Below are positions 22,829-54,275 of a stretch of 64,000 bases of DNA, one piece after another. Every line of letters starts with the position of its first letter. Position 1 is the first letter of the stretch. The notes beneath the pieces are model-generated. The model did not search any database. It was not told the origin of the DNA and saw only the letters and a program-made list of their open reading frames with translations. Position numbers and translations under genes: made by a program. Source of the stretch: Eubacteriales bacterium. GTDB lineage: Bacteria > Bacillota > Clostridia > Lachnospirales > Lachnospiraceae. The DNA is taken from positions 1 to 64,000 of the forward strand of contig JAUNOY010000015.1 of the NCBI GenBank assembly GCA_030536995.1, read 5' to 3'.

Positions 22829-25800
22829 ATGACGAAAATTAAAAACACAAAGAAGGGCATGGCGAAGAAAACGCTGAGCATTTCTCTTGCTGTTGCAATG
22901 CTGGCTACTTCTAATGTGCCGGTATGGGCTGCTGAGTTTACTGATGGAACAGACGCAGCGTTTACATCTGAAGCAGTTGTTGAGACTCCTGTTGAAGAAG
23001 TTGTTACTGATGCAGAAGAACCTGTTGTTGAGGAAGAAGTTGCTCCTGAAGTAGAGGCTTCTAACGTAGTTGAGGCGGGCGACTTAATTCTTGATGAGTT
23101 ACATGTGGATTCCAAAGCGACCTTCCAGACAGGTAAGATTGGCGTATCCGGTAAAATTAAAATTAAACGTAATGGTGAAATTGAAGAGTTAAAAAATTAT
23201 AAATTTGGCTGGAGAGTAGAAGGTGCTAAACAGAATATTTACACTAGTCAGGTAATTCCTCAGACTGATGCTTCCGTAATGAGCTTTAAACCAACATTTG
23301 TAGAAGGGCAAAAGGGTGCATCAGCAGTTGACTGGAGCAAGTATGTAGGACAGGTTCTTGAGTTAGTTGTTTTTAATAACGAAGAAGCTGACGAGATTAA
23401 AATTGATCCTACAGTAGTTGGAAAAACAGTGATTGAAAAACGCGATTTAACAGGTGCAAAACTTCAGCTCGAAGAAAGTACTTTAGTTTATAATGGAAAA
23501 GGCTACAGATATACACCAGAGGATGATCTTGATGCGAACTCTGTTAATTTAGTACAGAAAGCACTTGTGAATGTACCAGGTGAAGAGAAGGCTTGGGATA
23601 AAGACTTTGTTTTGAAATTCTTTAATGTAGATTCCAATACTGTAGTTAATGCAGGCGAAAAATTAGTAGTAAGAGCGACTCCTAAAGCAGATTCTCCTTA
23701 TAAAGGAACTGTTTATGCAGATGCACTTACAGTACAGAAGAAATCATATGAAGAAGGAGATTTATCTGTAACATTAAATACAGGTATTTCATATCCATAT
23801 ACAGGTAAAGTGATTACAGTTAATCCATCTGATATTACAGTTAAAGAATCCGATGAGTTATCAGGAAAGACCGTATCAGGTGTAGTTAAGTCTGCTGAAA
23901 CTGTTTCTGCAGGACTTGGAAAACAGCAGGTTAGTGTTCTGTTAGATGCAAAGCTTTTAACTAACTATAAATTTGATGGTTCAGTTAAAGCAGTAGAGCT
24001 TGTAACACCAGATGCAACTGATGCAAATAAAGTAACAATTACTCAGCGTAACCTTGCTACACAGACTAATATCACAATTGACCATGATGGAAAGATTTTA
24101 GTAGGTAGAACAGTTGCTGATTTCATTAAACATGATCTTAATTTAACAGATAAAGATGGTTCTTCACTCAATTTAGTTGAAGGAAAAGATGGCGATTATA
24201 TTGTTAGTGTTTTTGATGCTGATGGTAAAGTTGTAACAGACAGCTTTAAAAACTCTGGTAAATTATATAAGATTTTTGTTACTGCTGTAGAAAAGGCTGA
24301 AAACCAAAATTGTATTGAAGGACAGGAATTAACTGTATATGTAACAGACAATATTATTTCTAAAGTAGAATCTCAGCGTTCATTCAAACCTGCTTACACC
24401 GGAGAAGAAATTAAACCTACTAAAGCTGATTTTGGTACATTAACAATCTACGGAGTTGACGGTGTTAAAGTTCCACTTCAGTCGGATCAGTGGGAGTTCA
24501 CTGGAAAATATGTAAACAACACTAATGCAACTATCTATCATGCAACCGGTCTGATTAAAGAGCAGGCTTTCGCTGAGATTAAGATTCTTGGTGATAACGG
24601 ATATAAGGGACAGACTGCTTTAGTTCCTTTTGAAATTCTTCCATTAACTGTATCTGAGTCTACTGTTACTGTTCCAGCTACTGTAACATACAACCAGGGA
24701 TATGGTGATGCTAGTGAGTATAATGTACAGTTAGTTGTAACAGCTAAAGATGAAACAGGTAAAATTGTAAAAGGTCTTACTGCTGAAGATTACTCTGTTA
24801 AGTATGAATACGTAAATGGCAAAGATTCTGATACAGCAGCTCCAACAAATGAGCTTCATGACTTTATCAAAGCCACAATTACTGTAAAAAACCCTAACTT
24901 TATGGGAATGAATGGTCTTAAGAGCATTGTCAAGATGGAAGAAAAACATACTGAAATTGTTGAGAAAGCTCTGACAAGCAGTATGATTAAATTCAATCCG
25001 GCTACATATACATATACAGGTGGTGTAATCATTCCTACTTATGCAGTAATGGATGGAGAACTTGTATTATGGGATGAAGCTGAGTATGGCAAAAAAGGCG
25101 AGTACAAGGTTGAAAGTATTGTAAATAACAAAAATGTTGGTAAAGCTACTTTAACAATTGCAGGTATTTCCGGTAAATATTATGGTAAAGCATCTGCTGA
25201 TTTCGAAATCACACCAGCAAACACAGATAGCGTTAAAATAACATTTACAGATCCAAGTGAACTTAAATATACGGGTCGTCAGGTACGTCCTCGTACATTT
25301 GAGGCAAAATTAAACGGCAATACTGTAACAGATCAGTTTGAAATCGTTGGTTATGGTAAAAATATTTCCGGTAAAGGAACTGTTGAATTGAAACCAGTTG
25401 ATGGAAATAAGAACTTTACCGGTAAAAATATCATTGCTGAATTCAACATTGTTAAAGAGTATGTTGTAGGTGATCTTCATACATACAATAAGAATGGCGA
25501 AGATGTAACATCTGGTTATACATATGAGGAAAATTCAAAACGTGTTCCAAATCATACTTTTGATTTCGATGGAACTGCAAAAGAATTTGCTTCTACATTA
25601 TTAAAGAACCTTCAGGCAGATGAGGACACAAATAAAGTAGGCGATGGTGTAGGTACTACTAAAGCAACTGCTGATGATTTTGAAGTTAAATATGTTGATA
25701 ATGTATCAGGTAAAAAAGGATTTTCAAAAGATAATGACCATTACAATGTTGGCTACGTATATGTAGTAGCAAAAGATGGTAGTGGCTATGCGGGTACCAA

Positions 25801-26944
25801 AGAATTTACAACAGCTGATGGAACAACAATTAAAGGTGTTGTAGATTACATCCCATTCTTAATCAAAAATGTAAAATTTGTCAAAGAGAATGTTTCTGTT
25901 AAAAATGGCACATATGCTGGTGGTCTCCCAGTAAAGCCAGAAGTACTTGTACAGATTAATGGAAATACTCTTGTTGAAGGCAAGGATTATACATTAAAAT
26001 TCACAGATAAAAATGGTAATGCAGTTACACCTGTAGATGTTACTGATGGAAATATCTATAAAGTTATCGTAACAGGTATCAATGGCTATGAAGGTTCTGT
26101 TGATGATACCCATACATGGGGAGTTGACAAAAAAGACCTCGCAGACTGTGATGTTAAAGTGGTTAACGGTGTTGCATATGTAATGAACGGATATATTCCA
26201 GTTCCTGTAACAGAGTACACTGTTAAAGAAAACGATGACAAGACATACACAGTAACTGCAAACAAAGATTCCAAGAACTACACAGGTTCCAAGACAGTTG
26301 TTGCAGAAGGTCAGAAACCAACTGACAAACCGGAAACTCCAATGATTCAGTCTGTAAAAGTTGTTGGAAACAAAGCAACAGTAATCCTTTCCGGTGAGAC
26401 AGAAGGTGCTGTAGGATATGATTACGTAATTTCCACAGACAAAGACTGCATCAATAACAAAGATTACGATAAAGTAAACAAAAACATCCTCAACACAACT
26501 ACAGATTTCACATATGTAGGACAGGATGTATACTACGCTTACTGCCATGCTTGGAAACGTGGCGAGGACGGCAAGAAGATCTTCAGCGATTGGTCCAATG
26601 CTTACCCATTCGTTGTATCTGCTATCACACCATCCCAGCCTGCAATCACAAGTGTGAAAGTAAAAGGCAGCACAGTAACCGTTACTTATACAAAATCTTC
26701 TAACGCAGATGGTTATGACGTTGTTCTCGGAAGCAAGGTTGCAACTGTAGCAGGCGAAAAACGTCCGGTAGAGTACGCTAATCTTGTTAAGAAGAACATC
26801 AAAGGCAATACTGTAACAGCTACCTTCAAGAACGTGAAGAAAGGAACCTACTATGCAGGTCTCCACGCATTCAACAGAACATCTGAAGATGGCAAGAAAG
26901 TATTCAGCCCATGGTCAAATGTAAAGAAAGTAACAGTTAAATAA
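22829..26944 (+). CDS. Giant secreted Ig-like repeat protein, paralogue 1 (subfamily A)
   Basis: The 1371-residue chain has a signal peptide of about 34 residues (ending VWA), then a short acidic Val/Glu/Pro stretch. Eight or more beta-sandwich repeats of about 80-100 residues follow, many opening with a YTG motif and closing with a TITP/FTI-type strand. The last 200 residues are two Fn3-like modules, each ending in W-S-N. No LPXTG, SLH or hydrophobic C-terminal anchor is present. The first about 50 codons and last about 110 codons are nearly identical to those of three paralogues in the window; the middle is diverged and closest to paralogue 3. The ATG at 22829 follows AAGGGG. The function is unknown; secreted adhesin, matrix or surface-coat protein is inferred. 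Confidence 0.85.
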   Translation: MTKIKNTKKGMAKKTLSISLAVAMLATSNVPVWAAEFTDGTDAAFTSEAVVETPVEEVVTDAEEPVVEEEVAPEVEASNVVEAGDLILDELHVDSKATFQTGKIGVSGKIKIKRNGEIEELKNYKFGWRVEGAKQNIYTSQVIPQTDASVMSFKPTFVEGQKGASAVDWSKYVGQVLELVVFNNEEADEIKIDPTVVGKTVIEKRDLTGAKLQLEESTLVYNGKGYRYTPEDDLDANSVNLVQKALVNVPGEEKAWDKDFVLKFFNVDSNTVVNAGEKLVVRATPKADSPYKGTVYADALTVQKKSYEEGDLSVTLNTGISYPYTGKVITVNPSDITVKESDELSGKTVSGVVKSAETVSAGLGKQQVSVLLDAKLLTNYKFDGSVKAVELVTPDATDANKVTITQRNLATQTNITIDHDGKILVGRTVADFIKHDLNLTDKDGSSLNLVEGKDGDYIVSVFDADGKVVTDSFKNSGKLYKIFVTAVEKAENQNCIEGQELTVYVTDNIISKVESQRSFKPAYTGEEIKPTKADFGTLTIYGVDGVKVPLQSDQWEFTGKYVNNTNATIYHATGLIKEQAFAEIKILGDNGYKGQTALVPFEILPLTVSESTVTVPATVTYNQGYGDASEYNVQLVVTAKDETGKIVKGLTAEDYSVKYEYVNGKDSDTAAPTNELHDFIKATITVKNPNFMGMNGLKSIVKMEEKHTEIVEKALTSSMIKFNPATYTYTGGVIIPTYAVMDGELVLWDEAEYGKKGEYKVESIVNNKNVGKATLTIAGISGKYYGKASADFEITPANTDSVKITFTDPSELKYTGRQVRPRTFEAKLNGNTVTDQFEIVGYGKNISGKGTVELKPVDGNKNFTGKNIIAEFNIVKEYVVGDLHTYNKNGEDVTSGYTYEENSKRVPNHTFDFDGTAKEFASTLLKNLQADEDTNKVGDGVGTTKATADDFEVKYVDNVSGKKGFSKDNDHYNVGYVYVVAKDGSGYAGTKEFTTADGTTIKGVVDYIPFLIKNVKFVKENVSVKNGTYAGGLPVKPEVLVQINGNTLVEGKDYTLKFTDKNGNAVTPVDVTDGNIYKVIVTGINGYEGSVDDTHTWGVDKKDLADCDVKVVNGVAYVMNGYIPVPVTEYTVKENDDKTYTVTANKDSKNYTGSKTVVAEGQKPTDKPETPMIQSVKVVGNKATVILSGETEGAVGYDYVISTDKDCINNKDYDKVNKNILNTTTDFTYVGQDVYYAYCHAWKRGEDGKKIFSDWSNAYPFVVSAITPSQPAITSVKVKGSTVTVTYTKSSNADGYDVVLGSKVATVAGEKRPVEYANLVKKNIKGNTVTATFKNVKKGTYYAGLHAFNRTSEDGKKVFSPWSNVKKVTVK

Positions 26945-27185
26945 TCCAAAAGATTGATTGACTCGTTAAACAATCCTGCTTGGATATGTTGAAAATGAAA
27001 TAATCCATTTTGGGTGATTTATAAGATTCCTAAAAAAGCGCTCCGGCTCCCCGCCGGGGCGCTTTTCAAAAGAGAAAAACAATCTAGTGTAAATATATGA
27101 AATAAACATAAACAAAAATCTCCCATAGAAAGCTTTCTTGTAGGATAATCTAATGCCGTTTCTTTTTGTTGTTTAGGATACATAA
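26945..27185 (+). repeat. 3' flank repeat R1 plus distal extension
   Basis: Bases 26945-27066 are the constant 3' flank shared by all four giant genes, ending in a strong GC hairpin. The hairpin and the next 120 bases (27028-27185) recur almost identically, in reverse orientation, at 48064-48221. From 27186 to 27251 I see only AT-rich sequence before the IS element. Confidence 0.85.
27032..27066 (+). terminator. Terminator of giant paralogue 1
   Basis: GCGCTCCGGC and GCCGGGGCGC form a ten-pair stem with one mismatch, with A- and T-runs on either side, so it can work in both directions. Confidence 0.85.
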
Positions 27186-27310: not shown

Positions 27311-28506
27311 TTAACCGACTATGATATCAGACAGCAGATCGTCCTCCGTTTTGGAAAGATGATCCATATTCATGTAGCGTCGGTTCCCCATTGGGTTCCA
27401 GCTACATGACGCAGTCGGGCACATACGAGCATCAAGGTACGTTGACCATCAGGAAAAGCGCCGATTGCTTTCGTGCGGCGTTTAATCTCCCGGTTTAACC
27501 GTTCGATCGTATTATTGGTCCATATTCTGGTCCAGTGCTGGGTTGGAAAGTCCAGGTAGGTTAGAGTTTCTTCTATACCATCTTGTAGCTTTTTGGCAGC
27601 AGAGCTAAGCTTCATTTCCTTTAGTTTTTCAATAACCTGTCGTGCTTTTTCGCGTGCTGCTTCCTTGCTTTCCTGGGCATGGATGGCCTTTAACATCATG
27701 GCTACAGACTTCATCTTGTTACGTGGAGTAACAGAGAAAATATTCCGGTAAAAATGAACCGTGCAGCGCTGATAACGGGCATCCGGGAATACTTCCGGTA
27801 TGGTTTCGAACATTCCGAGATTTTTATCTCCAATGATCAGCCGGACTCCAGTTAAACTTCGTTCTTTCAGCCATACAAAGAAGGAACGCCAGCTCTCCTT
27901 GCCTTCTTTCATATCTTCAGCTGCACCGATGATCTCACGGCAACCATCGTTACTGACTCCAATAGCAACAAGGATAGAAAAGTTTTGAATTTCACCACCC
28001 CAGCTATGTTTCAAATAGACACCATCAACATAGACATACGGATAGCTGCCAGCCAACGGGCGTGTACGCCAGGTTTCAATATGCTCATATGCCTTTTTGT
28101 TGAGACTGCTGATGGTTCCTGGGGATACTTTTGTTCCCCACAAAGCTTCGGTGATATCTTCAACACGCCGTACGGAAACGCCTGCCAGATACATTTCAAT
28201 CAGAGCTTCTTCAACAGAAGATTCCCTGCGGCGATAGCGTTCGATAATGGCAGTTTCAAATGAAACTCCTTTCAGCTTTGGAACTTTTAATTCTACATCA
28301 CCTGCAGTAGTCTGGAAATTTCGCTTGTAGTGGCCGGAGCGATATCCCTGACGGTCAGCAGAACGCTCATATTTCTGGGCATTTACGAGTTCATCGGTTT
28401 CTTTATCAAGCAGAGCATTTAGGGTTTCTTCGACGCTACTGCGGACAAGATTCTTTAAATTGTGCTTTATTAAATCTTCATTGAATTGTATAATGTTATC
28501 AGACAT
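27311..28506 (-). pseudogene. IS256-type (mutator) transposase with C-terminal frameshift
   Basis: The open part (27370-28506) encodes 378 residues with a helical N-terminus and a DDE core: YVYVDGVYLKHSW, LIIGDKNLG and the Glu in NNTIERLNREIKRRTKA. The usual C-terminus after GTQWG is lost. Shifting by one base at the C-run near 27387 restores RRYMNMDHLSKTEDDLLSD and a stop at 27311-27313, as in intact IS256 proteins. The loss of one base therefore removes about 20 residues. The catalytic core is complete, so reduced activity is as likely as none. GGAGGTATAGAACC precedes the start. Confidence 0.85.
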
Positions 28507-28654: not shown

Positions 28655-28680
28655 ACTTGACATAGAGCCATTTTATATTG

Positions 28681-28802
28681 AAAAGCGCTCCGGCGGGGAG
28701 CCGGAGCGCTTTTTTAGGAATCTTATAAATCACCCAAAATGGATTATTTCATTTTCAACATATCCAAGCAGGATTGTTTAACGAGTCAATCAATCTTTTG
28801 GA
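28681..28802 (-). repeat. 3' flank repeat R2 with terminator
   Basis: This is the same constant 3' flank as R1, in inverted orientation, directly after giant gene 2. The hairpin GCGCTCCGGC/GCCGGAGCGC (about 28684-28710) is perfect here and serves as terminator. Confidence 0.9.
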
Positions 28803-31800
28803 TTATTTAACTGTTACTTTCTTTACATTTGACCATGGGCTGAATACTTTCTTGCCATCTTCAGATGTTCTGTTGAATGCGTGGAGACCTGCATAGTAGG
28901 TTCCTTTCTTCACGTTCTTGAAGGTAGCTGTTACAGTATTGCCTTTGATGTTCTTCTTAACAAGATTAGCGTACTCTACCGGACGTTTTTCGCCTGCTAC
29001 AGTTGCAACCTTGCTTCCGAGAACTACATCATAGCCATCTGCGTTAGAAGATTTTGTATAAGTAACGGTTACAGTGTTGCCTTTTACTTTCACGCTTGTG
29101 ATTGCAGGCTGGGATGGTGTAATTGCGGATACAACGAATGGGTAAGCATTGGACCAGTCGCTGAATACTTTTTTACCATCTTCGCCACGTTTCCAAGCAT
29201 GGCAGTATGCATAGTATGTGCCCTGCTGTGTATAAGTAAAGTCTGCAGATGTATTCAGAACATTTACACGTTTTGCATCGTAATCTTTGTTTGTGATACA
29301 GTCTCTATCTGTGGAGATTACATAATCATATCCCGTAGCACCCTCACTATCACCAGAGAGAACAACTGTTGCTTTATTTCCAACAACATTTACTTTCTGA
29401 ATCATTGGAGCCGCTGGTTTCTCTGTCACTGCATCAATAGTTTTGGAACCAGTATAGTTCTTGCTGTCCTTTACTGCAGTTACAGTCACCTGAGTATCTT
29501 TTTTCTCTACTGTATACTCAGATGCTTCAACATCAACTCTGCCACATTTAACAATAACTTTATCATCTTTTACAGATACATCAGCGTTAGCAAGATTGAA
29601 TTTATCGATGCCCCATTTCTGATTAGATACAGTTCCTGTATAACCATTCTTTCCAACAATTTTTACATTAAGGCTCTTAGATGGTGTTACATTTGTTAAA
29701 TCTGCATTTGAATCAAATTTCAGTTCGTAATCCTGACCTTCTTTTAATACGACACCTTTTACAATAACATCAACAACTGGTTTAACCGGAAGACCTGCTG
29801 CATAGGTACCATTAGATACTGATACGTTGTTTTCGCTAATATTAAGCTGGTTTAACTTAATATATTTTACAGAAATTACATTAGAAATCTTGTTTCCTTC
29901 TGCATCTGTATAGACACCTTTTTCAAGTCCCCACTCATTTGAGAAGTTGCTTCCGTATTTACCTTTGGCAATTGCAAGAACTGCAATATGCTGACCCTGA
30001 ACGCCAGTATAATCGACATCTTTACCATAAATGTTATCTACATACTTAATTTCATAGTCAACGCCTTCAACTAATTTGTCAGCCGCAACATCCTTACCTG
30101 TATAAGTGAATTCAGATTTTGCGAACTCTTTTGCAGTTCCATCATACGTAAAGTATTTAGATAAATCATTTTCATCAACAGCAATTCCATTCTTGTCATA
30201 GAAGGCCCATGTTCCACCTCCATCTAACATATCTCCAGTAATCTGGAATGTAAATGTTCTGCTTCCTGTGAAGTTTCCGTTCTTTGGTGTAAGAGTAACG
30301 GTTCCTTCTCCAATTTCAACGTTTCTTCCATAAGAAAGTGTAAAGTTATCTTTTACATTAATTCTTTCTTTATTTAAGGTCAAATTGAAATCAGATTCTT
30401 CTAATTCGATGGAATAGCCTTTATATTCTTTGCTTGCAATTACACCTTCTAAGCTATTTACATCAGCTGGATTAATAGTGAAGGTTACACTTGCTTCTTT
30501 ATTGCTGAAGTTTGTACCATCGCCTTTTACTGTTAAGGTTGCTGTTCCAGCATTTAAGTTCGCTGTATATGACTTAGTATAATGAGCAGGATTAATAACT
30601 TTTCCATCAATTACAACATCAAACTCCGGCTCAATAGCTTTACCTGTATATGTAAAGTTTGTTTCTTTTAATTTGATGTATTCTGACTTAAGATTTTTAG
30701 CTGTAATCGTAGATAAAACGTTTGCTGTTACAGGTTTTGTATTAACAAAGTTTCCATCATCAACAAGCTTGATTGTAGCTTTTACCTGTTTTCCGATTTC
30801 ATTGTTTTCTAAATCGTCAAACTCAACTTTGTAATCTGTTCCTTCTACAAGAGTAAATTCTTTTGCAGGCTTGTTTGCATTCTTAGCTTTTACAACGATA
30901 CCCATAGCTTCTTTGTAATCTTCAGCATTCTTAGTATCAATTTTTTCAACTTTGTCATTTGTAACTTTAATTTCAGTTACAACTGCAGGATTGATATCAA
31001 AGTAAACTTTTGTGGAACTTCCTTCGAAAGAACCGAGTCCTTTAACAATTACATATCCACCATCTTTTACATTAACATTCTTTCCGTTTTCTAATTCGTA
31101 AGATGTTGCAGAAACTGGTTCGCCTTTAATTGTAAGGACACCGAGATCTTCTTTAGTGATAACAATCTGCTCGCCTGTATATTCTTTTGCAACATTTAAT
31201 TTATTATCATCGCCTACATTTGCAAATGTACCACCTGCAATATCAGCTACTACAATACGGAAATCAGCAGTAGTCTGTCCTGTTACATTCTTATTGGTAT
31301 CTTTATGCTTGATTGTAGCTGTGTAAGTACCAACTTCTTTAGCATTATCAGGAACTGTGATATCTACATCGTCGAAAAGATTTAATACATTACCAGACTC
31401 GTCTGTAAATACAATATCATCTTTATCAATTGTTACTTTCTTACCATCAGTTGTAATGGTCTGTGATTTAATGGAGACCTTCACATCAGATAAATCTCTT
31501 GTAGTAACTTTAAGAGTGTTATCTGTCTGAATAGTTCTGTGTCCGTTAGTGTTTTCAGCAGTAATCTTATAGTTGTTATGCTCACCAGTGGTTGGCTGTC
31601 CGATAACAAGGGTAAGACGTGCATTTGTGATATCTCCTGCTTTTATTGCCTGATTCTCTGAATGTGCTGTACCTGCCTCAATAGACACATATCCATTCTC
31701 ATCTGCATAAAGATACTGAGATAAATCCTCCTTAGTATCTTTATCGATAAGTGTAACATCATCTTTCTTTACACGAATCACATTTCCAGTGTAAGCAAAA

Positions 31801-32651
31801 GAAGTTGTTTTTAAGGTTGCTACCATATGGTCAGCAATTTTATTAGAACTTCCATCAAGCGTCATAGGAGCGATTTCATACGTAGTAGAAAGTTCTCCTA
31901 CATAACCATCTGCAGTTGGAACGAGAGTTATTTTTGCTTCCTTAGTTGCATTCTTATGGTCACCAGTCTGAACAACTTTAAATCCAGCTTCACTCTTATC
32001 TGCTGTTGCTTCATTATCTCCTGCCTTGAGAGTTACATCTTTTGCAGCAAGAACCTTAGTTTTGCCATCATATGTATAAGAGCCCTTTACTGAAATAGAA
32101 TCATAAATTTTGGCTACATTTTTAGCCTTGATTGAGATGCTATCTGATGTATATGTCCAAATTGTTTCATTACTGTTATTAGTATCTACAGCATAAATAT
32201 AGAGATCTAAAGTTTTTCCCGCATCTGTAGCTACTGGTGTAAATTCAGCATTATTCACTGTTCCAGTAAATTCAGTAGCAGTAGCACTCTTTCCGTTAAG
32301 TCTCCAAGCATAATAAAATTTAATATTATTTGGGATTGTGGCATTGTCCTTAGCTTTTACAGTAAAGCTTGCGCCAACTTTACTTCCCCATGTAACAGCA
32401 TTATCTTCTACTCCAGTAAATACTGGTGCAACATTAAATGAATCATTAGAAACAGTTGAAGCAACAACTTCTGCAACTTCTTCCTCTACAGGAGTCTCAA
32501 CAACTATTTCAGATGTAAACGCTGCGTCTGTTCCATCAGTAAACTCAGCAGCCCATACCGGCACATTAGAAGTAGCCAGCATTGCAACAGCAAGAGAAAT
32601 GCTCAGCGTTTTCTTCGCCATGCCCTTCTTTGTGTTTTTAATTTTCGTCAT
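28803..32651 (-). CDS. Giant secreted Ig-like repeat protein, paralogue 2 (subfamily B)
   Basis: The 1282-residue chain has the same signal peptide as paralogue 1 and a short acidic spacer, then YTG-type Ig-like repeats. Its middle differs strongly from paralogues 1 and 3 but aligns with paralogue 4, for example at EDYKEAMGIVVKAKN and GNFTGSRTFTFQITG. The C-terminal pair of Fn3-like modules is nearly the same as in the others; the first module (TQQGTYYAYCHAWKR) is slightly diverged. The open frame runs 30 codons further upstream, but AAGGGGAACTATAAC fixes the ATG at 32651. It faces paralogue 1 across the IS element, so their 3' ends form large inverted arms. Confidence 0.85.
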   Translation of the reverse strand: MTKIKNTKKGMAKKTLSISLAVAMLATSNVPVWAAEFTDGTDAAFTSEIVVETPVEEEVAEVVASTVSNDSFNVAPVFTGVEDNAVTWGSKVGASFTVKAKDNATIPNNIKFYYAWRLNGKSATATEFTGTVNNAEFTPVATDAGKTLDLYIYAVDTNNSNETIWTYTSDSISIKAKNVAKIYDSISVKGSYTYDGKTKVLAAKDVTLKAGDNEATADKSEAGFKVVQTGDHKNATKEAKITLVPTADGYVGELSTTYEIAPMTLDGSSNKIADHMVATLKTTSFAYTGNVIRVKKDDVTLIDKDTKEDLSQYLYADENGYVSIEAGTAHSENQAIKAGDITNARLTLVIGQPTTGEHNNYKITAENTNGHRTIQTDNTLKVTTRDLSDVKVSIKSQTITTDGKKVTIDKDDIVFTDESGNVLNLFDDVDITVPDNAKEVGTYTATIKHKDTNKNVTGQTTADFRIVVADIAGGTFANVGDDNKLNVAKEYTGEQIVITKEDLGVLTIKGEPVSATSYELENGKNVNVKDGGYVIVKGLGSFEGSSTKVYFDINPAVVTEIKVTNDKVEKIDTKNAEDYKEAMGIVVKAKNANKPAKEFTLVEGTDYKVEFDDLENNEIGKQVKATIKLVDDGNFVNTKPVTANVLSTITAKNLKSEYIKLKETNFTYTGKAIEPEFDVVIDGKVINPAHYTKSYTANLNAGTATLTVKGDGTNFSNKEASVTFTINPADVNSLEGVIASKEYKGYSIELEESDFNLTLNKERINVKDNFTLSYGRNVEIGEGTVTLTPKNGNFTGSRTFTFQITGDMLDGGGTWAFYDKNGIAVDENDLSKYFTYDGTAKEFAKSEFTYTGKDVAADKLVEGVDYEIKYVDNIYGKDVDYTGVQGQHIAVLAIAKGKYGSNFSNEWGLEKGVYTDAEGNKISNVISVKYIKLNQLNISENNVSVSNGTYAAGLPVKPVVDVIVKGVVLKEGQDYELKFDSNADLTNVTPSKSLNVKIVGKNGYTGTVSNQKWGIDKFNLANADVSVKDDKVIVKCGRVDVEASEYTVEKKDTQVTVTAVKDSKNYTGSKTIDAVTEKPAAPMIQKVNVVGNKATVVLSGDSEGATGYDYVISTDRDCITNKDYDAKRVNVLNTSADFTYTQQGTYYAYCHAWKRGEDGKKVFSDWSNAYPFVVSAITPSQPAITSVKVKGNTVTVTYTKSSNADGYDVVLGSKVATVAGEKRPVEYANLVKKNIKGNTVTATFKNVKKGTYYAGLHAFNRTSEDGKKVFSPWSNVKKVTVK

Positions 32652-32664
32652 GTTATAGTTCCCC

Positions 32665-32681
32665 TTGCTGTAGTATAGCAA
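32665..32681 (-). promoter_or_regulatory. Extended -10-like dyad upstream of giant gene 2
   Basis: On the minus strand TTGCTATACTACAGCAA is an imperfect dyad that contains a TGC-TATACT extended -10 motif, 14 bases before the ATG's AAGGGG site ends. The same 17 bases precede giant gene 3 but not genes 1 or 4. Promoter or operator function is inferred. Confidence 0.5.
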
Positions 32682-41495: not shown

Positions 41496-41520
41496 TGATA
41501 ATACCTCCTTCAAATTATTT

Positions 41521-41643
41521 GAAAAGCACCCCGGCGGGGAGCCGGGGCACTTTTTTAGGAATCTTATAAATCACCCAAAATGGATTATTTCATTTTCAAC
41601 ATATCCAAGCAGGATTGTTTAACGAGTCAATCAATCTTTTGGA
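41521..41643 (-). repeat. 3' flank repeat R3 with terminator
   Basis: This is the constant 3' flank of the giant genes. The hairpin here is CACCCCGGC/GCCGGGGCA with two mismatched pairs, so it has drifted from R2. Confidence 0.85.
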
Positions 41644-44600
41644 TTATTTAACTGTTACTTTCTTTACATTTGACCATGGGCTGAATACTTTCTTGCCATC
41701 TTCAGATGTTCTGTTGAATGCGTGGAGACCTGCATAGTAGGTTCCTTTCTTCACGTTCTTGAAGGTAGCTGTTACAGTATTGCCTTTGATGTTTTTCTTA
41801 ACAAGTGTGCCATACTCTACCGGGCGTTTTTCGCCTGCTACAGTTGCAACCTTGCTTCCAAGAACTACATCGTAGCCATCTGTGTTAGAAGATTTTGTAT
41901 AAGTAACGGTTACTGTGGAGCCTTTTACTTTCACACTTGTGATTGCAGGCTGGGATGGTGTGATTGCAGATACAACGAATGGGTATGCATTTGACCAGTC
42001 GCTGAAGATCTTCTTGCCGTCCTCGCCACGTTTCCAAGCATGGCAGTAAGCGTAGTATACATCCTGTCCTACATATGTGAAATCTGTAGTTGTGTTGAGG
42101 ATGTTTCTGTTTACTTTATCGTAATTTTTGTTATTGATGCAGTCTTTGTCTGTAGAGATTACGTAGTCGTATCCTACAGCGCCTTCTGTCTCACCGGAAA
42201 GGACTACAGTTGCTTTATTACCAACAACTTTTACAGACTGAATCATTGGAGCATCCGGTTTTTCATCTTCTGCTTTACCTTCTGCATCAACAGTTACAGA
42301 ACCTGTATAGTGTTTGGAAAGTTCTTCTGCAGTGATTGTGTAAGTACCGTTGTTGTTATTCTTAACTGTATATTCTGTGGAAGCTACCGGAAGGTATCCA
42401 TTAAGAACAGTTACGACTCCGTCTTTTACAGTTACATTACAATCGCTAAGGGCTTTCTTGTTAACACCCCATGTTAATTTATCAGCATAAGAATCTTCTA
42501 CATTATTTCTATCGACTCCATATGTTGCAACAAGAGAACCTTCATATCCATTAATACCCTCAATTTTTACACCATAAATGTTACCAACAGTTGTTTCTGT
42601 AGGTGTAACATTAACAGCGTTCCAGTAATTATCCTTTAATTCTCTTAATGTTACCTTATAATCCTTACCTTCAACAAGAGTTGTTCCACCAATCTGGATA
42701 AGTATTTCTGGTTTTACTGGAAGTCCAGCTGCATAAGTTGCATTTTTGATAGATACGTTTTTGGATACAAATTTAACAGATTCAATGGAGAATGGAATCT
42801 TAGCAACAACACCGTTGATAACTGTTCCATCTGCTGTTACGATTGTATCAGCACCTGCAAAACCAGTTCCTTCTTTTGCTACTGCATAAACATAACCAAT
42901 ATTGTGTTTACCATCTGTGATTTTCTTACCAGTGATGTTATCTACATATTTAATCTCAAGGTCATCTACAGTTGCTGTTGTTGGAACACCATCCTCAGTA
43001 ACTTTTTTCACATTAGAAAGGACAGCCTTTGCAAATTTATGTTCATTACCGTTAAAGGTAAATGCAACATCAGCGTCACTCGTAACTACTGTACCGTCTT
43101 CGTTAAGTTTCGCTGCATAGAGGCTTGTTACATTAAAGCCTTTTGCGTCGTAAACATCTAATTTAGCACTAATTTTTTCTTTAACAATGTTAAACTCAAC
43201 AGTAAGATTGTCACCTGTAAAGTTCTTTGTATTTGGTTTCAGAACGACAGTTCCCTTTCCTGCCTCTACATTTGTACCATATGAAACAATATCAAACTGA
43301 TCTTTCACATCATTTCCATTTAAACTGATTGTGAACTGATCCATACGAGGTCTTACCTGACGACCTGTATAATCCTGATCTTTAACAGTAACTTTTACAT
43401 CTGTTGTTTTCGCAGCTGTAATCTTAAATGTTCCTGAAGCGGTTCCTGAATATAAATCATTTACACCTTTAACAGTAACTTTACCAGTTCCTACATTAAC
43501 TGCGTCAGTGATGCTTACTTCCTCATACTCAGCCTTGTCGTCTGCTACTTCACCTTTTTTGTAAAGTACAAGTGCACCGTCTACTACTGCATAAGTAGGA
43601 GTAATCTTACCACCAGTGTATTTGTATGTATCAGGAGTGATAACAACCATGGAATCGGTAAGCTTTTTAGCTACGATTTCTGTCTCATTTGCATCTTTTG
43701 TTACAGTTTTTCCATCTGTTGTTCCTAAGATGTAGTTTGTATTAGTGACTGTAACAGTTGATTTGATTTTGTCATGGATTTCATTCTCAGCATCATTTTC
43801 ATTATTATCTTTATCTACAAACACATATTTCACAGTGTAATCTGCATCTGTAAGAGTAACCGCTCTCTTTCCTGTAGAATCTTTAGCGATAACTGTAACA
43901 GGAACTTTGTATTCTTCTGGTTTTGTAATACCTTTATTAATGGAAATTGTTTCAGGAGCTTTCACTTCTTTTACTTCCAGAGGTTTAATAACAAATGGAA
44001 TTACACATGTAGAACCTTTGAAGTTACCTGCATTAATCTTTACAGTTACGGTTGCTTCTTTTTTAATCTGACTTCCATCATAGCTACATGCATTAATGTT
44101 CTTATTGTACCCAACGATTTCATAGTCTGTTTTCGGTACAGTCTCTGTTTTTTCAGAGCCATTAACATCTTTTCCTGTAACTGTTAAAGCTCCCATGTCG
44201 TCCTTGGAAGGTTTGATTTCTTCGCCTGTGTATTCATAGTTGAAATTGTCACCTTTTTCAGTAACTACATCAGTTAAAACTTTTTCTGCTGTTTCTACTT
44301 TGAAAGACTGTTCACCTGTACAGTTTGAAGAAGCTGCTTTCACAGTAATTGTATATGTACTTGCTTTATCTAAAGCTGTTACAGTTTTTCCAGACGCATC
44401 AACTGCAGAAATAACATAGTCAACGCCTTTTGTAAGGTTTAAGTCAACACCTTCTGCACCTTTGATATCTAAATAATTAGGAACTAACTTTTCTACCGTT
44501 GTTCCGGTTGGAATTACACCATTTGCAGTTTTAACAGAAATCTTTGTTCCAGCTGTAGAAAGATCACGGGCTTTGATTTCAACTGTTTCTTCCGCTTCAA

Positions 44601-45717
44601 TATATTTATTGCCAGTCACATCAAGGTTATCCAATTTAGTAGCGTCAAAATTAACGTATACTTTTGCATTTTTACTTACAGCAGACGGTGTCATAACTTC
44701 CACTTTAGTAATAACTTTGCTTAAATCAGCACCACTTAATTTTTTATCATCACCATTATTTGTAGATAAGGTTTCTGCGAGAGTAGCTTTTGCTTTATCA
44801 ATTTTGATTGTATTACCGGTATACTGATAAACTAAGCCCTTTTCTACATGTGCAATAAGGTTTTCCTTAATATTATCATTGGTAATCTCTCTCTTTACAA
44901 TTTCAGCAATTTTATGGTCAACACTACCTGTATATGCAGAGTTAGAATTTGCTGTAATTGTCGCAATAATTTTATCTCCTGCTTTTGTAGCAGTTGTTGT
45001 AGTCGCAATAGTGTAATCTGTTTCAGCAACAGATCCACCAAGCTCGTCTGTTACGTCAAATGTTGGAGCAACAGTTACTGTCTGAGCGAATCCATCATAT
45101 ACAGGATCTTTAACAGCATTCTCATTTGTAAAAGTAGCTGAAGTTAATAATCTTTTTTCAACGGATACAGTAATTCCTGTATTGATATCGTATAATCTCT
45201 GACCAGTTGTATCGACATCATATACATAAAGAGTCAGTTTTTTACCTGCTAAATCTTTTGTAGCAAGAAATCCCATATCATCTGCAGAATCACAATTAGG
45301 GTTGCTCACTCTTGAAATACCATCTTCATCAAGCCAACGGCACTGCCATTTATCTAAAGCAGAACCATTTTTTGTTACTGTACCATTAATTTTAAAGGTG
45401 ACTTTATCTTTGTCTGGAGTATTCTCAGTTCCCCAAAGTTTGCTTGTTTTATCTACAGATAAATCTACAGTAATATCACCCTCGTTTGTGATAACAGAAG
45501 CATCTTCAGCTTTTTCATCCTCAACAACCGGAGCATCAGTAACAACTTCTTCAACCGGAGTCTCAACAACTGCTTCAGATGTAAACGCTGCGTCTGTTCC
45601 ATCAGTAAACTCAGCAGCCCATACCGGCACATTAGAAGTAGCCAGCATTGCAACAGCAAGAGAAATGCTCAGCGTTTTCTTCGCCATGCCCTTCTTTGTG
45701 TTTTTAATTTTCGTCAT
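41644..45717 (-). CDS. Giant secreted Ig-like repeat protein, paralogue 3 (subfamily A)
   Basis: The 1357-residue chain has the shared signal peptide and, like paralogue 1, an acidic PVEEVVTDA spacer. YTG-type repeats follow: KYTGGKITPTYAVVDG, YTGRQVRPRM and the LPVKPEILIQI block. Its repeat order follows paralogue 1. It carries an extra stretch of about 18 residues (VATYGVDRNNVEDSYADKL) before the WGVNKK block, absent in paralogue 1. The last two Fn3-like modules are nearly identical to all paralogues; PVEYGTLVKKN is shared with paralogue 4, not with 1 or 2, which shows segment exchange across subfamilies. The ATG at 45717 follows AAGGGGAACTATAAC. Confidence 0.85.
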   Translation of the reverse strand: MTKIKNTKKGMAKKTLSISLAVAMLATSNVPVWAAEFTDGTDAAFTSEAVVETPVEEVVTDAPVVEDEKAEDASVITNEGDITVDLSVDKTSKLWGTENTPDKDKVTFKINGTVTKNGSALDKWQCRWLDEDGISRVSNPNCDSADDMGFLATKDLAGKKLTLYVYDVDTTGQRLYDINTGITVSVEKRLLTSATFTNENAVKDPVYDGFAQTVTVAPTFDVTDELGGSVAETDYTIATTTTATKAGDKIIATITANSNSAYTGSVDHKIAEIVKREITNDNIKENLIAHVEKGLVYQYTGNTIKIDKAKATLAETLSTNNGDDKKLSGADLSKVITKVEVMTPSAVSKNAKVYVNFDATKLDNLDVTGNKYIEAEETVEIKARDLSTAGTKISVKTANGVIPTGTTVEKLVPNYLDIKGAEGVDLNLTKGVDYVISAVDASGKTVTALDKASTYTITVKAASSNCTGEQSFKVETAEKVLTDVVTEKGDNFNYEYTGEEIKPSKDDMGALTVTGKDVNGSEKTETVPKTDYEIVGYNKNINACSYDGSQIKKEATVTVKINAGNFKGSTCVIPFVIKPLEVKEVKAPETISINKGITKPEEYKVPVTVIAKDSTGKRAVTLTDADYTVKYVFVDKDNNENDAENEIHDKIKSTVTVTNTNYILGTTDGKTVTKDANETEIVAKKLTDSMVVITPDTYKYTGGKITPTYAVVDGALVLYKKGEVADDKAEYEEVSITDAVNVGTGKVTVKGVNDLYSGTASGTFKITAAKTTDVKVTVKDQDYTGRQVRPRMDQFTISLNGNDVKDQFDIVSYGTNVEAGKGTVVLKPNTKNFTGDNLTVEFNIVKEKISAKLDVYDAKGFNVTSLYAAKLNEDGTVVTSDADVAFTFNGNEHKFAKAVLSNVKKVTEDGVPTTATVDDLEIKYVDNITGKKITDGKHNIGYVYAVAKEGTGFAGADTIVTADGTVINGVVAKIPFSIESVKFVSKNVSIKNATYAAGLPVKPEILIQIGGTTLVEGKDYKVTLRELKDNYWNAVNVTPTETTVGNIYGVKIEGINGYEGSLVATYGVDRNNVEDSYADKLTWGVNKKALSDCNVTVKDGVVTVLNGYLPVASTEYTVKNNNNGTYTITAEELSKHYTGSVTVDAEGKAEDEKPDAPMIQSVKVVGNKATVVLSGETEGAVGYDYVISTDKDCINNKNYDKVNRNILNTTTDFTYVGQDVYYAYCHAWKRGEDGKKIFSDWSNAYPFVVSAITPSQPAITSVKVKGSTVTVTYTKSSNTDGYDVVLGSKVATVAGEKRPVEYGTLVKKNIKGNTVTATFKNVKKGTYYAGLHAFNRTSEDGKKVFSPWSNVKKVTVK

Positions 45718-46067
45718 GTTATAGTTCCCCTTGCTGTAGTATAGCAATCGGTTTGGGTGAATTTTTTTACGTAAAAAAGGCACTGATTTTTAGAAAAAAT
45801 CAGCTTGAAGTAGACGTAAAATCAGAACAACAATTCCAGTACAATTTAAGAATAAAAGAAAAATCCCTGTGAGAAATTTGATATTCAGTATAATTACAGC
45901 TGAACAATTCCAAAACAATTCTGACGATATCAAAAATCTCCAGTATATTCTTGGGATGTGTGCTATTTTTAGATGATACTTTTTATTTAGGCTCAAAGGG
46001 GAGAAAAGGTATACAAATGTATTCTAATAGGATATAATTAATAAAAAAACAATTATAGGAGGGCTTT
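45718..46067. other. Divergent intergenic region (giant gene 3 / ATPase)
   Basis: It holds the gene 3 dyad (45731-45747), a CTGATTTTT/AAAAATCAG hairpin (about 45782-45803) and a TATAAT at 46033-46038 facing the ATPase gene. The -35 partner (TATACA) is poor. No other gene is seen. Confidence 0.5.
45731..45747 (-). promoter_or_regulatory. Extended -10-like dyad upstream of giant gene 3
   Basis: The same 17 bases as before giant gene 2 (TTGCTATACTACAGCAA on the minus strand), with TGC-TATACT inside and the identical AAGGGG ribosome site after it. Confidence 0.5.
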
Positions 46068-50215: not shown

Positions 50216-50345
50216 CTCTTTTGAAAAGCGCCCCGGCGGGGAGCCGGAGCGCTTTTTTAGGAATCTTATAAATCACCCAAAATGGATTATTTCATTTTCA
50301 ACATATCCAAGCAGGATTGTTTAACGAGTCAATCAATCTTTTGGA
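50216..50345 (-). repeat. 3' flank repeat R4 with terminator
   Basis: Constant 3' flank of the giant genes; the GC hairpin (about 50225-50255) sits back-to-back with the terminator of AAA-ATPase copy 3. Confidence 0.88.
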
Positions 50346-53300
50346 TTATTTAACTGTTACTTTCTTTACATTTGACCATGGGCTGAATACTTTCTTGCCA
50401 TCTTCAGATGTTCTGTTGAATGCGTGGAGACCTGCATAGTAGGTTCCTTTCTTCACGTTCTTGAAGGTAGCTGTTACAGTATTGCCTTTGATGTTTTTCT
50501 TAACAAGTGTGCCGTACTCTACCGGGCGTTTTTCGCCTGCTACAGTTGCAACCTTGCTTCCGAGAACTACGTCATAACCATCTGCGTTAGAAGATTTTGT
50601 ATAAGTAACGGTTACTGTGCTGCCTTTTACTTTCACACTTGTGATTGCAGGCTGGGATGGTGTGATAGCAGATACAACGAATGGGTAAGCATTTGACCAG
50701 TCGCTGAAGATCTTCTTTCCGTCCTCGCCACGTTTCCAAGCATGGCAGTATGCGTAGTATACATCCTGTCCTACATATGTGAAATCTGTAGATGTGTTAA
50801 GGATGTTTTTGTTTACTTTATCGTAATCTTTGTTATTGATACAGTCTTTGTCTGTGGAGATTACATAGTCGTATCCTACAGCGCCTTCAGATTCTCCAGA
50901 AAGAACAACTGTTGCTTTGTTTCCAGAAACATTTACTTTTTCAATAACTGGAGTTTCCGGTTTTTCTTCCGGAGTAATAACTACTGCAGATACAGTCTTA
51001 GAACCCTTGTAGTTCTTGCTATTCTCTTTAGCAGTTACAGTTACTGTATTAGCTGCTTCATCTTTTGTAACAACATAATCACTTGTTGCAACATCAACTC
51101 TGCCACATTTAACGATAACAGTAGCACCATTATCTTTAACTGTTACATCAGCATTTGCAAGATCAAACTTGTCAACGCCCCAGTTGAACTCTAAATCCTG
51201 AACACCCTGGTTAATTTTATAACCGTTCATAGGAATAACTGTTACTTTTAAGGACTGAGTTGTAGTAACTTCTGTTGCAGTTGGATATTCAAGTTTATAA
51301 TCTACACCTTCAACAAGATCTTTTCCTTCAACATTTACTTTAACTACAGGTTTTACTGGAAGACCACCCGCATATGTACCATTAGATACAGATACATTTC
51401 TACGTGTTACACCTACCTGCTCAATATCAAATGTCTCGGCGTAGAGTACATTTTCAACCTTGTTTCCTGCAGCATCAGTATAGACACCATCTTTTACGCC
51501 TGCCCCAGTATAATTACCTGCATAGCTTCCTTTTGCAATTGCAAGAACGGCACCTTTCTGAACGCCATCTACTTTTTTACCATATACGTTATCTACATAT
51601 TTGATTTCGTAATCTGTACCTTCTTTAAGAGTTACACCTGTGACAGTAGTACCATTGGACTTAGTCAATGTTGTTCCAGCAGTTTCAAGAACTGTTTTAG
51701 CAGCTTTAAATTCTGTACCATCAAATTTATGGTTAAGAGTTACAATCTTCAGACCATTTTCGTTGTAGAATGTAAAATCCCCACCTTTGAGCATCTGACC
51801 TGTAATTTTAAATGTAATTGTCTTGGTTCCTGTGAAATTACCGTTCTTTGGAGTTAAAATAACAGTACCTTCACCAATATTAACGTTTTCACCATAAGAT
51901 AAGGTGAAGTTATCCTTTACGTTAATAACAACATCATTTAAACTAGCTTCAATATCTGCATATCCAGGCTCAATGCTGTATCCACTGTAAATCTGACTTG
52001 GAACAGTTGCTTTGAGATCAGCAGCATCAGCAGCGGTAATTGTAAAGTTTACACTGGTATCTACATCTGCACTAAATCCTTCACCCTTAACGCCTGTAAT
52101 TACCATTGTTGCAGTTCCAACATTTACATTATTAGTTAAAGATTTAACTTTATATCTATCTGGCGCAATAACTCGTCCATCTACTACAACATCAAAATCA
52201 GGTTTGATAGCAACACCAGCGTATGTATAAGATGTTTTCTTAAGCTTGATGTTTTCTGCTTTCAGAACTCTATCCGTGATTGTAGACTTAAACTCTTTAA
52301 CGCTTACCTTAAAGTTTTTGTTTTTAAGATAATTATTGACATCTGTTTTTAATGTAACAACTACCTTGTTGTCAATTTTATTTTCGTTTTCGAAAGAATA
52401 TTTCTCAACAACAAAATCAGTTCCCTCTACTAAAGTAAACTCTTTGCCATCTTTATTTTTAGCCTTAACAACAAGGTTCATAGCTTCTTTATAATCTTCT
52501 GGCTTGGTTGTATCTTTTAACTCTACAAACTTACTTACAGATACGGTATCAGCAGTTACTTCAGCTGGATTAATAGTAAATTCAATGACTTTTCTACTTC
52601 CAGCATAACTTCTGAGACCTTTGATGATAATCTGTCCTTTACCGGCATTAATGTTAGCACCAAATTCTACAGTATAGTCTTCTGGTGTAAGATTTACTCT
52701 TTTACCTGTTTCTTTATTAATGACAGTAACATTACCGAGTTTCTTAACATCTTTTAAAATTCTCTCACCAGTATATTCTTCGTCCTGTCCAGCATATTTC
52801 ATATTGCTGAATTCTGCTGTCTCAAGAGAGGATGCTACGATATATAATTTAGCAGTTGTACTGCCTTCAACATTTGTATTGTTAGTAGCAGGAGTCACTG
52901 TTACATCATGTTCTCCCTGTGTGGAAGCTGTAGAGGTAATAACAACATCTCCGGCTAATGTTAATTTTTCTTTTGTTGTTTTATCATAGTAAGTAGCGTC
53001 TGTTGATTGAACCTGTACAATGTTTCCATTTGCATATGGCTGCTCTGGAATAACGACATCTACTGTGGATAAATCACGTTTAGAAATTGCAAAAGCATTA
53101 GTTGGTGCAACTATAACACCACTACTAATTTCATAGTTTTTATATTTGCCTGTTGTAGCAGTCGCAATTGCAAATGAAACCTTTGCATCAACTTCATTTG
53201 TTGTATTAAATGTATTGCCAGCTTTTGCATATTCTACTGGAATAGTATCTACTGTTGTGGTTGTTTCTCCTGGAATGTAGTTGTTAAGTTCAACTCCAGA

Positions 53301-54275
53301 TTTTTTATCAACGAGTTTCACATCAGATTTGAATACAGGAATTGCATTTCCGGTATATGGTTTAGATGTTGTTACAAACTCTGCCTTAACCCAATCATTA
53401 ACATTATCTTTTGTTAATGTTAATGGAGCAATTTTGTAATTTACAACGATGCTTCCTGTATATCCAACTTTTTTAGAAGAAACATATACATCAACACCTT
53501 CATCAGTAACATTTACTGTGTCACCTTTTGTGCTGCCTGGTGTATATTCAAAATCACTTACTGTAAGACCGTATTTAGCAGCTTTTGATCCACCAACAAT
53601 ATTATTCAGATCAAGCTGATCAACAGTAGGAACAATAGCTTTTCCTGTATATGTGGTATTGAAATTTTTAAATCCATCAACATCACGCTTTTCATTAATG
53701 TCAACAGGTTTTACTGTAAAGGAATCGGAGGTCCAATCCCATACAATTGTATTATTATTTTCAGCATAAACATATAATTTATACTGTTTATTAGACATCT
53801 CTGGAGTTGTTTTAATACTAGCCTTTAAAGCGCCATCTTTTAAGGTTGCAATTTCACCAACCTGACCGTTAGAATCTTTCCAGACTGCTTTAAGTGTAGC
53901 ACCTTTCGTTTCTTCAGTAGCGTCTGCATTTGGTGTAACCTTGATGTCTGTTTCTATTGTTTTCTCTTTACCATTTTCATCGGCCCATACAATTTCTCCA
54001 TTTACAACTCCTGAAAATGGGGTTGCAGAAATATCAAAACCATGTCCTTCAACTACAGGAGCCTTTGCTTCAGCAGCAACTTCTTCATCAACAACCGGAG
54101 CTTCATCAACAACTTCAACTGGTGCTTCTACTTCAGATGTAAACGCTGCGTCTGTTCCATCAGTAAACTCAGCAGCCCATACCGGCACATTAGAAGTAGC
54201 CAGCATTGCAACAGCAAGAGAAATGCTCAGCGTTTTCTTCGCCATGCCCTTCTTTGTGTTTTTAATTTTCGTCAT
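50346..54275 (-). CDS. Giant secreted Ig-like repeat protein, paralogue 4 (subfamily B)
   Basis: The 1309-residue chain has the shared signal peptide and an acidic spacer of its own (VEAPVEVVDEAPVVDEEVAA). Its YTG-type repeats align with paralogue 2: PEDYKEAMNLVVKAKNKDG, YAGVAIKPDFDVVVDG, GNFTGTKTITFKITG and the LPVKPVVKVNVEG block. The Fn3-like C-terminal modules are nearly identical to the others. Unlike the rest it has a near-consensus sigma-A promoter about 80 bases upstream and no TTGCTG/TAGCAA dyad. No cell-wall anchor is seen. The ATG at 54275 follows GGAAAGGGGAACTATAAC. Confidence 0.85.
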   Translation of the reverse strand: MTKIKNTKKGMAKKTLSISLAVAMLATSNVPVWAAEFTDGTDAAFTSEVEAPVEVVDEAPVVDEEVAAEAKAPVVEGHGFDISATPFSGVVNGEIVWADENGKEKTIETDIKVTPNADATEETKGATLKAVWKDSNGQVGEIATLKDGALKASIKTTPEMSNKQYKLYVYAENNNTIVWDWTSDSFTVKPVDINEKRDVDGFKNFNTTYTGKAIVPTVDQLDLNNIVGGSKAAKYGLTVSDFEYTPGSTKGDTVNVTDEGVDVYVSSKKVGYTGSIVVNYKIAPLTLTKDNVNDWVKAEFVTTSKPYTGNAIPVFKSDVKLVDKKSGVELNNYIPGETTTTVDTIPVEYAKAGNTFNTTNEVDAKVSFAIATATTGKYKNYEISSGVIVAPTNAFAISKRDLSTVDVVIPEQPYANGNIVQVQSTDATYYDKTTKEKLTLAGDVVITSTASTQGEHDVTVTPATNNTNVEGSTTAKLYIVASSLETAEFSNMKYAGQDEEYTGERILKDVKKLGNVTVINKETGKRVNLTPEDYTVEFGANINAGKGQIIIKGLRSYAGSRKVIEFTINPAEVTADTVSVSKFVELKDTTKPEDYKEAMNLVVKAKNKDGKEFTLVEGTDFVVEKYSFENENKIDNKVVVTLKTDVNNYLKNKNFKVSVKEFKSTITDRVLKAENIKLKKTSYTYAGVAIKPDFDVVVDGRVIAPDRYKVKSLTNNVNVGTATMVITGVKGEGFSADVDTSVNFTITAADAADLKATVPSQIYSGYSIEPGYADIEASLNDVVINVKDNFTLSYGENVNIGEGTVILTPKNGNFTGTKTITFKITGQMLKGGDFTFYNENGLKIVTLNHKFDGTEFKAAKTVLETAGTTLTKSNGTTVTGVTLKEGTDYEIKYVDNVYGKKVDGVQKGAVLAIAKGSYAGNYTGAGVKDGVYTDAAGNKVENVLYAETFDIEQVGVTRRNVSVSNGTYAGGLPVKPVVKVNVEGKDLVEGVDYKLEYPTATEVTTTQSLKVTVIPMNGYKINQGVQDLEFNWGVDKFDLANADVTVKDNGATVIVKCGRVDVATSDYVVTKDEAANTVTVTAKENSKNYKGSKTVSAVVITPEEKPETPVIEKVNVSGNKATVVLSGESEGAVGYDYVISTDKDCINNKDYDKVNKNILNTSTDFTYVGQDVYYAYCHAWKRGEDGKKIFSDWSNAYPFVVSAITPSQPAITSVKVKGSTVTVTYTKSSNADGYDVVLGSKVATVAGEKRPVEYGTLVKKNIKGNTVTATFKNVKKGTYYAGLHAFNRTSEDGKKVFSPWSNVKKVTVK

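Follow-up and report, generated by a model that had tools for sequence, protein, structure and literature searches.

The 64,000-bp DNA stretch analyzed here (the window; genome G000, an assembly of 40 contigs and 2.83 Mb) carries an array of four genes, g1 to g4, whose giant secreted products of about 1,300 amino acids have constant ends and variable middles (Table 1). We consider it likely, with a probability of about 0.8, that this locus switches a giant secreted protein, probably located at the cell surface, by means of one expression site and silent cassettes that are exchanged via their constant ends. In sequence comparisons we observed a single promoter block, homogenized ends, cassette types common to several species, and an expression site occupied by different cassettes in related species. 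We infer that the remaining copies are not expressed, that switching and inversion occur within a strain, that a large serine recombinase encoded at the other boundary of the array acts here, that the product is located at the surface, and that antibodies or phages provide the selective force.

In the proposed mechanism, g4 would be the cassette now standing behind the sole recognizable promoter, near glgP, and the other three, present in both orientations, would be intact promoterless stores. Recombination between the constant 5′ ends, which extend from the ribosome-binding site (RBS) to past the end of the signal peptide, would invert the segment that separates the expression site from an oppositely oriented cassette, so that the promoter would then be followed by a new middle and 3′ end. 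In addition, middles would be swapped, and the ends kept alike, by homologous exchange via the constant 5′ and 3′ ends. The inversion would most likely be performed or assisted by the large serine recombinase. Because the leader stays with the site while the middle travels with the cassette, the crossover would be expected in the interval from the shared AAGGGG to about codon 36-48.

A previous sequence-only reading of this DNA had proposed a surface-variation or coat locus in a gut commensal. The proposal of surface variation is well supported by the assignment to the genus Blautia, the homogenized ends, and the differing middles at a fixed expression site; that the product forms a coat is just plausible. 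The promoter at one copy, the two orientations, and the conserved large serine recombinase at the far boundary had not been part of that reading.

Constant ends and diverged middles in the window

All four open reading frames (ORFs) described by the sequence-only reading are intact, one on the plus and three on the minus strand. The constant block around the start, previously estimated at about 158 bp, comprises 159 bp (−15 to +144) that are the same in all four copies. The 3′ coding block, for which about 330 bp had been given, is near-constant over about 400 bp, with 42 to 50 identical columns per 50 in the four copies, and 199 of the 200 columns that span the stop codon (−150 to +50) are identical in g1 to g4. 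In the 3′ flank, estimated at about 125 bp, 98 of the first 100 columns are identical, and identity is lost by about 150 bp. Along the aligned genes, DNA identity in the middle was mostly below 70% per 100-column block, between near-constant ends. The description of the middles as strongly diverged also holds at the protein level, residues 60-1165 being only 28.7-41.7% identical in pairwise comparisons (45-54% for full-length proteins versus g1, constant ends counted in). The middles form two pairs that the sequence-only reading had not mentioned, g1 with g3 and g2 with g4, at 41-42% identity versus 29-30% for the remaining pairs.

A whole-genome DNA search with the 5′ block returned four matches, every one in this locus, and a 20-mer of this block (≤3 mismatches) matched four times in the window and never in shuffled sequences. 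Where residues are identical between g1 to g4, the same codon is used in 192/192 cases in the first 36 residues versus 1008/1922 in the middle, which indicates that the ends are homogenized DNA and are not kept alike by protein constraint alone.

The g1-g4 proteins showed no match to a Pfam or NCBIfam family above cut-off, and a profile search of PDB sequences with the cassette protein gave weak matches only (best E 0.0096). The cassette protein is predicted to be all-beta, and the Foldseek matches of the model include the S-layer proteins SbsC and Sap (TM score 0.11-0.15).

Cassette types are shared between species, ends are shared within genomes

For comparison we used 64 genomes of the genus of the window, one genome per species; the window was assigned to Blautia via named relatives in the genome scan. 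The cassette N-terminus was present in nine of the 64 (the array genomes): G000, G015 (Blautia schinkii DSM 10518), G025 (Blautia sp. MSJ-9), G034, G038, G040, G061, G062, and G063 (B. wexlerae MSK.20.46). G042 was left out of this count, having a weak match (29% over residues 7-109, E 2.4e-4). Some match to g1 was found in 25 of the 64 genomes, in many of them to the C-terminal end alone. As the scan scored the best nine or fewer candidates per genome, copy numbers per genome are to be read as "at least."

Among the full copies compared, the 5′ block was identical within each genome over 159 bp in G000 (n = 4), 121 bp in B. schinkii (n = 9), 139 bp in G025 (n = 3), 142 bp in G038 (n = 2), and 137 bp in G062 (n = 3). 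In the first 36 residues the same codon was used at 99-100% of identical positions within four genomes (all 192 in G000, 1137/1144 in G015, 93/93 in G062, and 93/93 in G025) versus 70% between genomes (3259/4643). For the middles, the within-genome rate was 46-55%.

The middles of three window genes have their nearest relatives in other species: that of g2 is nearest to a G062 cassette (58-68% in three middle segments), that of g3 to G015, G038, and G062 cassettes, and that of g1 to G015 cassettes, with G038 equal in the last segment. The family alignment and the trees were based on 23 rows; two G061 homologues and a truncated G062 copy (139285) were excluded, and the G034 and G040 fragments never entered. 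The tree of the 23 middles required 12 changes of genome label, with five as the least possible and 13.2 as the mean of shuffled labels (38 of 200 shuffles as low), whereas the C-end tree required seven (least possible, five; shuffled mean, 13.1; 0 of 200 shuffles as low). Forcing the four window middles into one clade was rejected by the approximately unbiased test (p-AU 6e-7). Middles mixed across species together with ends grouped by genome suggest that the cassette types are older than the species and that the ends are held alike inside each genome through exchange.

A single promoter block marks the expression site

Of the four window genes, g4 alone carries a promoter block. In five genomes the corresponding block consists of TTGACA-N17-TATATT or -TATTAT followed by a leader of about 78 bases, in which the stretch from GATTATGTCTAGG to AACTATAA is the same in all five but for one A; about 140 bases are conserved, and little is conserved further upstream. 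We scored the upstream regions of 21 copies, two G063 copies being dropped since their contigs end inside the block. The five expression-site copies each had one mismatch to TTGACA-N17-TATAAT, whereas the best match of all 16 others had three to four mismatches, which did not surpass their own shuffles. The leader pattern occurred exactly once in each of six of the 64 genomes and not at all in the reversed control. A shorter pattern (≤3 mismatches) was found once in seven of the nine array genomes, adding B. wexlerae, and in none of three array-free genomes. In all seven genomes having a leader pattern it lies within 2 kb of glgP. A search of IMG/VR gave no match to the leader, and the exact pattern had no match outside its own genome across 397 sampled family genomes, a search that more distant versions may have escaped.

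The cassette behind this fixed site differs between species. A single clade of the five expression-site middles was rejected (p-AU 8e-45); they represent four cassette lineages (four changes on the tree), with a common type in G025 and G038. The clearest case is the pair G025 and G062, in which identity is 94.4% in the flank (4.7 kb), 94.1% in the leader plus 5′ block (407 bp), and 92.0% in the 3′ block (641 bp). Nevertheless, the G025 middle at the expression site, approximately 3.4 kb long, does not match the cassette at the G062 expression site at the nucleotide level. The g2 type, which is promoterless in the window, stands behind the promoter in G062.

These results bear on the simpler explanation that g1 to g4 are ordinary co-expressed paralogues with constrained signal peptides and anchors, subject to occasional gene conversion and without any switching. 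The signal peptide and the Fn3-like C-terminal end are plausibly functional and worth conserving, and gene conversion is common in tandem families. However, each genome with the promoter block has just one, close to a fixed gene, with the other copies at shuffle level, the expression-site cassette comes from different lineages in different species, and codon-level identity is found inside genomes and not between them. We therefore regard this explanation as very unlikely.

The leader has a further property. Apart from a short insert, its segment TAGGAATCTTTACCCAAA (54313-54330, minus strand) is the reverse complement of TTTGGGTRA..AGATTCCTA in the cassette 3′ flanks, a motif that occurs soon after the stop codon in all 21 readable flanks from six genomes (two G025 copies truncated by contig ends were excluded). 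In four genomes, the duplex predicted between leader and 3′ flank had an energy between −24.6 and −26.5, 2-3 standard deviations beyond the shuffled means, with shuffle minima of −30 to −32; on chosen segments, the G000 duplex reached −23.3 versus a shuffle minimum of −23.7. The complementarity could be used for pairing of the 5′ and 3′ ends of the mRNA or as a DNA site, with energies that are not clearly past those of shuffles. An RBS-hiding hairpin in the silent copies was rejected, as the folds were weak (−5.5 to −10.7 versus −3.5 to −5.7, with overlapping ranges).

A large serine recombinase opposite the expression site

Large serine recombinases are best known for one-way phage integration. 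The protein encoded at the boundary opposite the expression site contains the domains Resolvase (PF00239), Recombinase (PF07508), and a zinc ribbon (PF13408) above cut-off, and its best PDB sequence match is the TP901-1 integrase. In all nine array genomes an inward-facing cassette start is located on the 5′ side of the recombinase gene, either directly or after at least one ORF. Where promoter and recombinase are on one contig (G000, G015, and G062), both bound the array, and the recombinase-side cassette opposes the expression copy. Genomes with a recombinase of at least 71% identity are the same 9 of 64 that have the cassette N-terminus, a co-occurrence that is weaker than it appears because of linkage and common descent. 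The recombinase gene is under purifying selection, with ratios of nonsynonymous to synonymous changes (pN/pS) of 0.08-0.23, compared to 0.03-0.09 for glgP.

The 5′ block is a candidate attachment (att)-type recombination site. We tentatively propose, at somewhat less than even odds, that Blautia has co-opted the recombinase to shuffle giant surface-protein cassettes reversibly at a site within this block, so that a common gut commensal would carry out programmed antigenic variation, with a leader that also complements the cassette 3′ flank. Near the C-terminus, the recombinases of G000 and G034 lack about 50-60 residues that the five others compared possess; the G034 gene lies at G034:C200:12329-13687, and the longer G034 match contains one internal stop codon.

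Array-free genomes and B. wexlerae contigs

We examined seven array-free genomes (G014, G045, G035, G010, G009, G017, and G016). In G014, G045, G035, and G010, glgP and plsC are spaced by 1.4-19 kb, without the array and without this recombinase; the interval of G010 contains two distant serine recombinases (25-26%). The two genes are far apart in G009 and G017 and on different contigs in G016. On the glgP side, G014 and G062 are 95% identical. It seems that the array and the recombinase arrive or vanish as a pair. As such joint gain or loss would also fit an integrated island, that explanation was retained and is weighed below.

In B. wexlerae, the contig with the promoter and the contig with the recombinase have their last 55 bases exactly alike, and these bases are inside the 5′ block. 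The two ends of a third contig of 22,116 bp, which carries at least two full cassettes, have their first 55 bases exactly in common. The matching ends suggest a short repeat left unresolved by the assembler, so that the 22-kb segment could be attached either way. This is a hint only: the culture may have contained both orientations, or the read pairs may simply have been short.

Counterevidence and alternative explanations

Several observations weigh against the proposed switch. All evidence for it comes from comparison between species, with one genome per species, and no switch within a strain or a species was observed. For g4, g2 and the best relatives from other genomes are about equally close in two of the three middle segments. 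The C-ends of B. schinkii are as little as 62% identical within the genome, two copies being divergent, and the C-end of the G025 expression copy is nearer to G062 than to its own silent copies. Some silent copies are broken, one being truncated in G062 and one in G025 being a C-end remnant with a stop codon. The array genomes G034 and G061, which are fragmented and 83-86% complete, had no match to the shorter leader pattern. In the six array genomes other than those named above, promoter and recombinase are on separate contigs, and the position of the recombinase at the other end is deduced from these separate contigs. Relatives of the recombinase with 59-68% identity are encoded at other places, where the sequence stretches retrieved contained no cassette. 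In the pair G025-G062, synonymous divergence (dS) is 1.4 for the recombinase and 0.11 for glgP, which suggests that parts or ends of the locus differ in history. No crossover site of the recombinase was identified when the empty site of G014 was compared by eye with G062, a comparison that did not include a systematic search for att repeats; mobile relatives of the recombinase compared for an att site gave no clean boundary. Finally, homogenization of the 3′ ends requires homologous recombination and is left unexplained by a site-specific enzyme acting at the 5′ end, and the recombinase may be just the integrase of the island.

The last two points lead to an alternative in which all exchange occurs by RecA-type homologous recombination and gene conversion via the constant ends, and the recombinase is a former island integrase without a role in switching. 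Besides the homogenized 3′ ends, which inversion at a 5′ site does not account for, this explanation is favored by the location of the recombinase gene at the island edge, a typical position for an integrase, by the four array-free relatives with close neighboring genes that have neither array nor recombinase, and by the presence of near relatives of the enzyme in other places. A spent integrase would, however, not usually be kept under purifying selection beside an inward-facing cassette in nine species. We consider this alternative a serious one that falls a little short of an even chance.

Another possibility is that horizontal exchange replaces the cassette at the expression site slowly, on the time scale of species, and that no phase variation takes place within a population. 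The restriction of all observations to differences between species, the different histories of parts of the locus, and the truncation of some silent copies agree with it. In contrast, each of the 16 promoterless copies examined has a long open reading frame (in two copies a contig end cuts it short), pointing to recurrent expression or use as donors; the opposed orientations and the retained recombinase fit frequent switching, and the B. wexlerae segment that can be attached both ways gives a hint in the same direction. Slow replacement alone thus appears unlikely. A diversity-generating retroelement as the source of variation was rejected because the reverse transcriptase at 39394-40788 belongs to a group II intron: it has a group II intron maturase domain and adjoins group II intron RNA matches, although no search for template repeats was made.

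Comparison with known switching systems

Programmed switching of one out of many coat proteins is known mainly in pathogens facing antibodies. If the proposed switch is real, commensals, namely several species of a common human gut genus including B. wexlerae, may vary a major surface protein against immunoglobulin A (IgA) or phages. If the large serine recombinase is the enzyme, this would be an unusual, reversible use of its class. In its operation the proposed switch would resemble the Mycoplasma vpma/vsp and Campylobacter fetus sap systems.

The Campylobacter fetus sap S-layer locus likewise combines a single promoter with homologous genes that have constant 5′ ends, are present in both orientations, and are switched by inversion. 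That locus is not known to include a dedicated large serine recombinase. Neisseria pilE/pilS and Borrelia vlsE resemble the Blautia locus in having one expression site and silent variable donors between constant ends, but their donors are truncated, whereas those described here are mostly complete genes with their own RBS and terminator.

Further comparisons draw on passages of PMC2268961 and PMC5634654. As described there, the vpma locus of Mycoplasma agalactiae and the vsp locus of M. bovis have a unique promoter, silent surface-protein genes with shared 5′ ends, inversions, and a gene for a site-specific recombinase in the locus (PMC2268961). By its sequence, the window has in common with them one promoter for a family of putatively silent genes, shared 5′ ends, and genes in both orientations. 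In contrast to the large serine recombinase found here, Xer1 and Mbr are tyrosine recombinases. The vpma recombination sites are in the 5′ untranslated region, whereas the constant block here spans the RBS to past the signal peptide and is accompanied by a second constant block at the 3′ end; Vpma proteins are lipoproteins, unlike the giant proteins of the window. In the vsa locus of Mycoplasma pulmonis, the expression site provides promoter, RBS, and coding start to silent 3′ parts via DNA inversion (PMC2268961). There, silent genes receive their first 714 coding bases from the expression site, whereas the silent cassettes described here keep their own start and signal peptide. Inversion at C. 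fetus sap has been reported to occur without RecA as well, according to a reference title in PMC5634654. In the open-access literature, on which our search concentrated, with subscription papers and preprints mostly outside it, we found no report of such a system in Blautia or Lachnospiraceae; in the available passages of a study on gut DNA inversions, Blautia is named once, with respect to abundance (PMC10939037).

Features of the array and other genes among the cassettes

Table 1. Features of the cassette array and its surroundings in window coordinates
Feature	Position	Strand	Remarks
Large serine recombinase	21022..22371	−	449 aa; candidate switch enzyme at the array's other boundary, based on Pfam and position
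g1 5′ constant block	22814..22972	+	159 bp
g1	22829..26944	+	1371 aa; promoterless cassette, nearest to recombinase, faces inward
g1 3′ constant block and terminator flank	26545..27069	+	Fold predicted on g4
Mutator-family transposase	27370-28506	−	Between 3′ ends of g1 and g2
g2 3′ constant block	28678..29202	−	
g2	28803..32651	−	1282 aa; promoterless cassette; nearest relative fills G062 expression site
g2 5′ constant block	32508..32666	−	
AAA-ATPase/PDDEXK_9 gene	33551-35248	+	Between cassettes
AAA-ATPase/PDDEXK_9 gene	37168-38862	+	Between cassettes
Group II intron with maturase reverse transcriptase	39028-40788	+	Between g2 and g3
g3 3′ constant block	41519..42043	−	
g3	41644..45717	−	1357 aa; promoterless cassette
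g3 5′ constant block	45574..45732	−	
Gene with weak AAA match, then DpnII/MboI-type restriction endonuclease-like gene	46068-47992	+	AAA match below cut-off
AAA-ATPase/PDDEXK_9 gene	48453-50138	+	Between cassettes
g4 3′ constant block	50221..50745	−	Predicted to encode most of a tandem Fn3-like pair (fold prediction)
g4	50346..54275	−	1309 aa; cassette at expression site; alone of the four with promoter block
g4 5′ constant block	54132..54290	−	
Expression-site leader	54276..54353	−	Conserved; ends in shared AAAGGGGAACTATAAC ribosome-binding region; pattern once in the genome
Expression-site promoter	54354..54382	−	TTGACA-N17-TATATT; 11/12 consensus matches
Weak match to Rpn recombination-promoting nuclease	54660-55568	−	Below cut-off; just upstream of promoter

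Several genes of other kinds are interspersed among the cassettes (Table 1). The gene with the weak AAA match and the restriction endonuclease-like gene that follows it are possibly a defense pair. The three AAA-ATPase/PDDEXK_9 genes are mosaic, two of them being 98.9% alike over 1226 bp and 92% over the first 348 bp, and relatives of these genes are found among the cassettes in G015, G025, and G063.

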